DNA from: a virus | Strand: one strand, 5' to 3' | IMG/VR virus record: IMGVR_UViG_3300029893_000001 | Location: 124,001 to 188,000 of that record | DNA: 64,000 nucleotides | Shown: one piece after another, positions 4,361 through 4,486 of the stretch | Layout of the letters: every line of letters begins with the position of its first letter | Numbering within the stretch: the stretch's first letter is position 1 | Translations under genes and position numbers: made by a program | The notes under the pieces: model-generated | The model's database searches: none | Seen by the model: the letters and a program-made list of their open reading frames with translations, nothing else | What the model was told of the DNA's origin: nothing

Positions 4361-4486
4361 TCTGAGTGTCTGCGTCATTCTGTTAGACCACCTCTCCGCA
4401 CGTAGCTCAATCCAGGAGGGGATTAGGGGAGGGGTCAAGATTGAGCTACGTGCGGAAAGGGCTGGATTCGCACCAGCATTTCAGAC
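4361..4486 (-). tRNA. Permuted tRNA-like gene B with hairpin linker
   Basis: Minus-strand order: anticodon strand GTCTG (4482-4486), AAAT, T-arm GCTGG-TGCGAAT-CCAGC (4461-4477), 3' acceptor CCTTTCC (4454-4460), linker, 5' acceptor GGAGAGG (4391-4397), TG, D-arm GTCTAACAGAATGAC (4374-4388), G, anticodon strand CAGAC (4368-4372). Acceptor pairing is 7 bp with one G-U, the anticodon stem is a perfect 5 bp, and every spacing equals that of a normal tRNA. The linker is a 17-bp perfect hairpin (4396-4412 with 4439-4455). The D-loop lacks the usual GG and the T-loop has G at position 55, so function is uncertain. Confidence 0.5.
4396..4455. repeat. 17-bp perfect inverted repeat
   Basis: Arms 4396-4412 and 4439-4455 match perfectly around a pyrimidine-rich 26-base loop. 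The pairing continues five more bases into both acceptor strands of permuted tRNA B (one G-U), for 22 bp in total. It would bring the two tRNA halves together. Confidence 0.9.

Follow-up and report, generated by a model that had tools for sequence, protein, structure and literature searches.

The element considered here lies at positions 4361-4486 of a 64,000-nucleotide window (the whole stretch of DNA that was analysed). The window covers positions 124001-188000 of the 392-kb virus record IMGVR_UViG_3300029893_000001, which has more than 40 ordinary transfer RNA (tRNA) genes. The element is, with somewhat better than even confidence, the second unit of a structured noncoding RNA of about 350-450 nucleotides that would be made with the upstream-encoded protein DUF7873 and would act as a scaffold presenting two tRNA elbows, similar to Ro60-Y RNA. 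Comparison among relatives shows, at the level of sequence, a conserved gene-RNA pair with two permuted tRNA-like domains, two extra stems, and repeats. By the same comparison, a stem with an internal loop stands in for the anticodon arm in unit 2, and YUNA tracts of 6-nucleotide spacing do so around unit 1. We infer that the RNA probably mimics tRNA in a protein-bound state rather than serving as a tRNA in protein synthesis.

Through this pair, a protein family whose function is unknown is tied to an RNA that strictly accompanies it, covaries strongly, and has no family in Rfam. It is present in culturable phages (Arthrobacter phage Racecar, Gordonia phages GodonK and Ziko, and Rhodococcus phage NiceHouse) and also in Streptomyces. 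Among the papers searched, none was on DUF7873 and none described a permuted tRNA in phages, and the link between protein and RNA appears to be new.

Tandem permuted units

Read on the minus strand from 4500 to 4360, unit 2 has the order GTCTG, T arm, CCTTTCC, linker, GGAGAGG, D arm, and CAGAC, which is the order of a circularly permuted tRNA body. It is in tandem with unit 1 (4578-4636, minus strand), the first permuted unit that an earlier, sequence-only reading had implied just upstream, and which has the same order. The DUF7873 gene ends at 4779, directly 5' of both units (4675-4322) and on the same strand. The true extents go beyond the coordinates given first, at approximately 4322-4538 for unit 2 and 4322-4675 for both units. 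Neither ARAGORN nor Rfam called a tRNA across the permuted-unit stretch of the window.

The acceptor stem of unit 2 is formed by GGAGAGG (4391-4397) and CCTTTCC (4454-4460), and has 7 bp including one G-U. The anticodon-like stem is composed of CAGAC (4368-4372) and GTCTG (4482-4486). The two extra stems are an inner stem, CTCGTG (4494-4499) with CACGAG (4348-4353), and an outer stem, CACC (4510-4513) with GGTG (4331-4334). In the closest record (G001, 132,998 bases), both units are at the same place. The acceptor stem there is GAAGGGG:CCCCTTC, the anticodon-like stem TAGGC:GCCTA, the inner stem CTCGTTT:AAACGAG, and the outer stem CGCC:GGCG. The sequence-only reading had proposed a permuted order with a 7-bp acceptor and a 5-bp anticodon stem pairing across the permutation, and covariation as the check. 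All of these elements are seen and covariation supports them: the acceptor and anticodon-like strands change jointly in G001, and a change in one strand only was not seen.

Covariation and covariance model

Acceptor pairs were counted in 125 unit pairs (120 loci and five loci added by hand). Unit 1 has 63 distinct pairs, 57 of which are fully paired, and unit 2 has 70, with 65 fully paired, against a mean of approximately 4 of 7 with shuffled partners; the unit scan demands at least six acceptor pairs in addition to T and D stems, so that the acceptor-pair test alone is biased. The alignment A4 is composed of 31 unit-2 domains, with the window phage, G001, and the named cultured phages left out. 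Its sequences come from the same scan, but it is less exposed to the bias, with two extra stems that lie outside the scan criteria.

A4 has 31 pairs in five helices, namely the T arm, the acceptor, the D arm, a 9-bp inner stem, and a 6-bp outer stem, the last two flanking a conserved internal loop, AUCGACC / CUUAAACG. In 29 of the 31 pairs both sides change. Paired cells amount to 95.3%, versus 41-47% after a shift of the partners by 1-3 columns, and all cells of the acceptor helix are paired. The covariation score is 0.775 versus at most 0.174, and none of 500 shuffles scored as high.

A covariance model of unit 2 (R1, 170 positions) was built without the window and G001. It matches 4322-4538 of the window (minus strand) over its full length, model positions 1-170 of 170, at 78.1 bits with an E value of 7.8e-20. 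Scores in relatives are 116 bits (Racecar), 110 (NiceHouse), 101 (GodonK), and 91 (G001). Unit 1 is matched at 42.1 bits, and ordinary tandem tRNAs are partial matches of at most 34 bits in the window. Among 56 further DUF7873 loci outside the model, 43 score at least 60 bits. The folding of unit 2 compared with chance has a z value of −5.57.

Association of the RNA with DUF7873

The window protein (246 amino acids, 4779-5519, minus strand) is a full-length member of DUF7873 (PF25283; Pfam E 8.2e-101). A single-protein query found no relatives, and an alignment query found the DUF7873 loci. Homologs are present in phages of Arthrobacter, Gordonia, Rhodococcus, Pseudanabaena, Microcoleus, Rhizobium, Vibrio, and Klebsiella; the stretches that carry one number at least 311 for viruses and at least 564 for bacteria. 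Of 160 loci from phages and bacteria, 120 have two permuted units directly 3' of DUF7873 and on its strand. Within the 500 nucleotides after DUF7873 there are 242 unit matches on the coding strand versus 4 on the opposite strand.

A set of 198 Actinomycetota genomes has DUF7873 in six. The full-length RNA is present in the same six and in 0 of the 192 others (Fisher p 1.3e-11); one of the six positives, G007, centred the draw, and its locus was in R1. In these six genomes, the RNA lies on the strand of the protein match, 184-273 nucleotides beyond it. As judged by this co-occurrence, the DUF7873 gene and the RNA form one unit. No recurrent neighbour gene was seen by eye in the flanking open reading frames of 12 bacterial loci, which were not Pfam-scanned.

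Acceptor stem and linker

The unit 2 linker (4398-4453) is a long hairpin of 15 Watson-Crick pairs and one wobble that is stacked on the 7-bp acceptor for a total of approximately 22-23 bp. The sequence-only reading had described a perfect 17-bp hairpin running into the acceptor as an alternative fold of 22 bp that competes with or presents the acceptor ends. The continuous helix is there, but the competition is not: since the hairpin stacks on the acceptor, it lengthens that helix.

In 72 non-redundant loci, the linker ranges from a few to 88 nucleotides and usually forms no conserved element, and 36 of the 72 copies have linkers of 12 nucleotides or less. The acceptor end is closed by the linker in every copy. 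The window and G001 have the long hairpin in common with different sequences, and on this comparison it is a lineage-specific, local elaboration of these two.

Hexamer repeats and the DUF7873 protein

A tract 5' of unit 1 (4645-4675, minus strand), ACTCAGAATCAAACTGATCTGAAG, has YUNA words every 6 nucleotides, and this spacing is enriched in relatives. In the 72 non-redundant relatives, CTNA at a spacing of 6 was observed 64 times versus 1.4 times after shuffling, with enrichment at spacings of 12 and 18 as well. A weaker hexamer pattern exists 3' of unit 2.

The AlphaFold (AF2) model of DUF7873 is composed of helices and long strands, with a predicted local distance difference test score (pLDDT) of 92.5 and a predicted template modelling score (pTM) of 0.77. 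Conserved residues include ATxKHPAQ near residue 170. A likeness to Cas7, which works with a 6-nucleotide period, was considered. Several chains of Cascade Cas7 are among the top Foldseek rows, with template modelling (TM) scores of only 0.11-0.14, and this likeness is not used as evidence.

Proposed function

As proposed, several DUF7873 protomers would bind the YUNA tracts and the internal loop, and the RNA would act as a scaffold holding out two tRNA elbows. Acting as a tether or a decoy, the elbows would bind elbow-recognising tRNA enzymes, as in Ro60-Y RNA. The RNA would be neither spliced, aminoacylated, nor used on the ribosome. More tentatively, and at a little under an even chance, the pair may be a ribonucleoprotein of a new class, shared by bacteria and phages and without descent from Ro60-Y RNA, in which DUF7873 protomers along the YUNA repeats form an oligomeric particle and the two permuted mimics capture elbow-binding enzymes.

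The elbow is the part of the RNA that is kept. In unit 2 of the non-redundant loci, GG of the D loop is kept in 67 of 72 and TTC of the T loop also in 67 of 72, the latter count being inflated by a T-arm scan that selected tRNA-like T loops. U33 at chance level and NCCA linker starts in a minority (both given below) contrast with this, and the T/D elbow is therefore the conserved surface, unlike a decoding loop or a free acceptor end.

Several points, of which the inflated TTC count is one, weigh against the scaffold. Unit 2 of the window has TGC and not TTC in its T loop (T arm GCTGG-TGCGAAT-CCAGC, 4461-4477, placed by the R1 alignment). Its 3-bp D arm (4374-4390) has the loop TAACAGAAT without the usual GG. 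The sequence-only reading had noted odd D- and T-loops; they are departures of this copy from its family, and its elbow may be weaker than in relatives. The joint change from G18/U55 to A18/G55 in the window could be compensatory, as a single case that proves nothing. For the protein, Pfam, PHROGs, NCBIfam, PADLOC, and PDB gave no function or known RNA-binding domain by sequence. A fold search gave no trustworthy match: the top Foldseek hit has E 6.7e-3 and a TM score under 0.2, and the top VIA-align hit has Z 6.4 at 13.7 Å. The repeat sequences are related to one another, so that their z-scores overstate independence and are not to be taken as probabilities, and the YUNA repeats could in part be paired and not protein-bound. 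We also infer the binding of DUF7873 to the RNA, the use of the repeats as its sites, and the capture of tRNA-recognising enzymes by the elbows.

Other explanations

A genuine circularly permuted tRNA gene would have a precursor with circularisation or splicing at the anticodon arm, and a linker cut by RNase P and RNase Z, giving a decoding tRNA. The permuted order and the pairing across the permutation are real, and the 5-bp anticodon-like stem has 5 of 5 pairs in 64% of unit 2 copies versus 12% with shuffled partners. Some linkers also start with NCCA, but these are a minority, with ACCA the most frequent in unit 1 (38 of 125) and TCCA in unit 2 (23 of 125). In unit 2 of the window, the linker has no NCCA start and the acceptor runs into the long helix without CCA. 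A conserved joined anticodon loop, with U33 and purine 37, was not found. Of the 46 non-redundant unit-2 RNAs whose anticodon-like stem has all 5 bp, 8 or 14 have U33, depending on the side supplying the loop, which is about chance. A search of units 1 and 2 for splice junctions that would give a decoding tRNA found no consistent junction, with U33 at chance level in both. There is no conserved splice signal, RtcB was not found in G000-G005, and all 20 amino acids are already served by ordinary tRNAs of the phage. With an unconserved anticodon loop, an acceptor closed by a variable linker, and CCA not kept, a decoding permuted tRNA is very unlikely. The sequence-only reading, which called the element a permuted tRNA and suspected a mimic, was right on the order and the suspicion; a gene for translation is the part that is not supported. 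Remnants or halves of ordinary tRNAs set side by side are less credible still, almost to the point of dismissal. Tandem ordinary tRNAs do yield similar half-half patterns and the low-scoring R1 matches mentioned above. Against this, no ordinary tRNA was called, acceptor pairing is within units and covaries over more than 60 distinct pairs, and the arrangement is kept across many bacterial groups. Within-unit acceptor covariation, the gene-RNA match in Actinomycetota, and the A4 helices refute it.

Two further explanations accept a mimic, and each is improbable to about the same degree. In one, the RNA would be a decoy that protects the phage tRNAs from anticodon nucleases or other defences aimed at tRNA. 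Several phage copies sit among tRNA genes, and a role as competitive inhibitor has been proposed for the tRNA-like domain of YrlA (PMC7790460). However, there is no anticodon loop available for cutting, and chromosomal copies exist in Streptomyces, Nonomuraea, and Myxococcus. As a member of the bacterial Y RNA (YrlA) family, the RNA would be predicted to bind Ro60/Rsr with DUF7873 as an accessory. The permuted tRNA-like architecture is the same, and unit 1 has a weak full-length match to Rfam YrlA at 16.2 bits, although this is far under the gathering cut-off of 69 and unit 2 has no match. The source record (G000) encodes a TROVE-like protein (match at 96199-96387), but this is approximately 32 kb from the RNA, whose immediate neighbour is DUF7873. 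TROVE is present in 5 of 6 DUF7873-positive versus 3 of 192 DUF7873-negative Actinomycetota genomes (Fisher p 1.4e-7, not corrected for phylogeny). The TROVE and DUF7873 genes are far apart wherever positions are known, and of nine named phages that have DUF7873, eight gave no TROVE match, including Racecar, NiceHouse, GodonK, and Ziko. Separate YrlA-like RNAs, of up to 57.8 bits in relatives, are also present in the same genome family. With a weak or absent YrlA match and a neighbour other than TROVE, Y RNA identity was rejected by these tests for both units, although other units in these phages do fit it.

Remaining features of the locus

The rest of unit 1 (minus strand) is, in order, the T arm GGAGG-TTCGAAT-CCTTC (4620-4636), the acceptor 3' strand CTTCCCC (4613-4619), the linker GCTGAGTAT (4604-4612), which closes the acceptor stem, the acceptor 5' strand GGGGAGG (4597-4603), and the D arm (4578-4596). 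The two acceptor strands pair with each other and covary in relatives. The 3' flank of unit 2 (4335-4372) contains the 5' strand of the anticodon-like stem, the 3' strand of the inner stem, and, by the R1 alignment, the conserved internal-loop strand UUAAACG, the window counterpart of the A4 consensus above. A hairpin resembling an intrinsic terminator, with a 13-pair stem followed by TCTTTTT (4253-4284, minus strand), is the putative transcript end.

In Klebsiella phage FBKp24 (L080), an annotated tRNA-Sup-TTA at 3665-3749 overlaps the second unit of the DUF7873 RNA and was probably called in error. Two tRNA calls in G000 are worth recording. A tRNA at 105653-105726 has the amber suppressor-like anticodon CUA, a possible sign of stop-codon reassignment, and the ARAGORN tRNA-Ile(gat) at 97640-97713 is below the Rfam cut-off and resembles a permuted unit in sequence.

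Further permuted units

Further permuted units are present in the window at 2760-2880 (minus strand; approximately 126839 in G000) and elsewhere in G000 at 97967, 97665, 109571, 117403, 120291, and 120435. In relatives they were located at 51109, 50970, and 57201 in G001 and at 182968, 198825, 202333, and 202478 in G002. They carry flanking motifs AATGC, CTGT, and TACA that resemble Ro-binding Y RNA stems, and four of those in G001 and G002 match Rfam YrlA at 31.8-57.8 bits (up to E 1.4e-10). By these motifs and matches, Y RNAs seem to be numerous in this phage group, in genomes that encode a TROVE-like protein. Partial R1 matches in G033, G203, and G171 are within approximately 1.5 kb of TROVE matches, which would follow if R1 also recognised the tRNA-like portion of Y RNAs.

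An anticodon loop with U33 and purine 37 (for example Thr UGU, Trp CCA, Cys GCA, and Pro UGG) is retained in the 3' half of 10 of 20 Y-RNA-like units. The 5' half completes its stem, and several linkers start with NCCA. Such units are found at 2792 and 3056 in Zooman (L062), 2844 and 3968 in Rhodococcus phage Trina (L063), 182968, 202333, and 202478 in G002, and 109571 and 120291 in G000. These may be permuted tRNAs capable of splicing, or else mimics of unusual completeness. A 209-nucleotide pseudo 'tRNA-OTHER' in the GenBank entry of Trina (2817-3025) covers a permuted unit.

Comparison with known systems

In algae and some archaea, the transcripts of circularly permuted tRNA genes mature into decoding tRNAs. 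As in the RNA described here, the 3' half precedes the 5' half and a linker is located at the acceptor end. Unlike those genes, this RNA shows no conservation of the anticodon loop and no splice motif, and its linker extends the acceptor helix. The tRNA-like half of permuted transfer-messenger RNA (tmRNA) is another tRNA-like RNA with altered strand order. No tag-peptide reading frame was seen in the RNA of the window, although no search aimed at one was made, and this phage has a separate ordinary tmRNA at 6641-7041.

Another likeness is to YrlA (RF02553) with Ro60/Rsr. The structure of a YrlA-type bacterial Y RNA (6CU1) superposes on tRNA with circular permutation (PMC11472068), and phage Y RNAs are suggested in a passage of PMC12282133 that cites Chen et al. 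2014. Both RNAs have a tRNA-like module in permuted order that includes T and D arms and a closed acceptor, and in YrlA a protein-binding stem replaces the anticodon arm. The RNA of the window differs in having two tandem modules, DUF7873 instead of TROVE as its neighbour, a different internal loop, and YUNA repeats of hexamer spacing. The comparison suggests that tRNA-mimicking scaffolds of the Y RNA type extend beyond Ro60, having arisen or been adopted with another protein.
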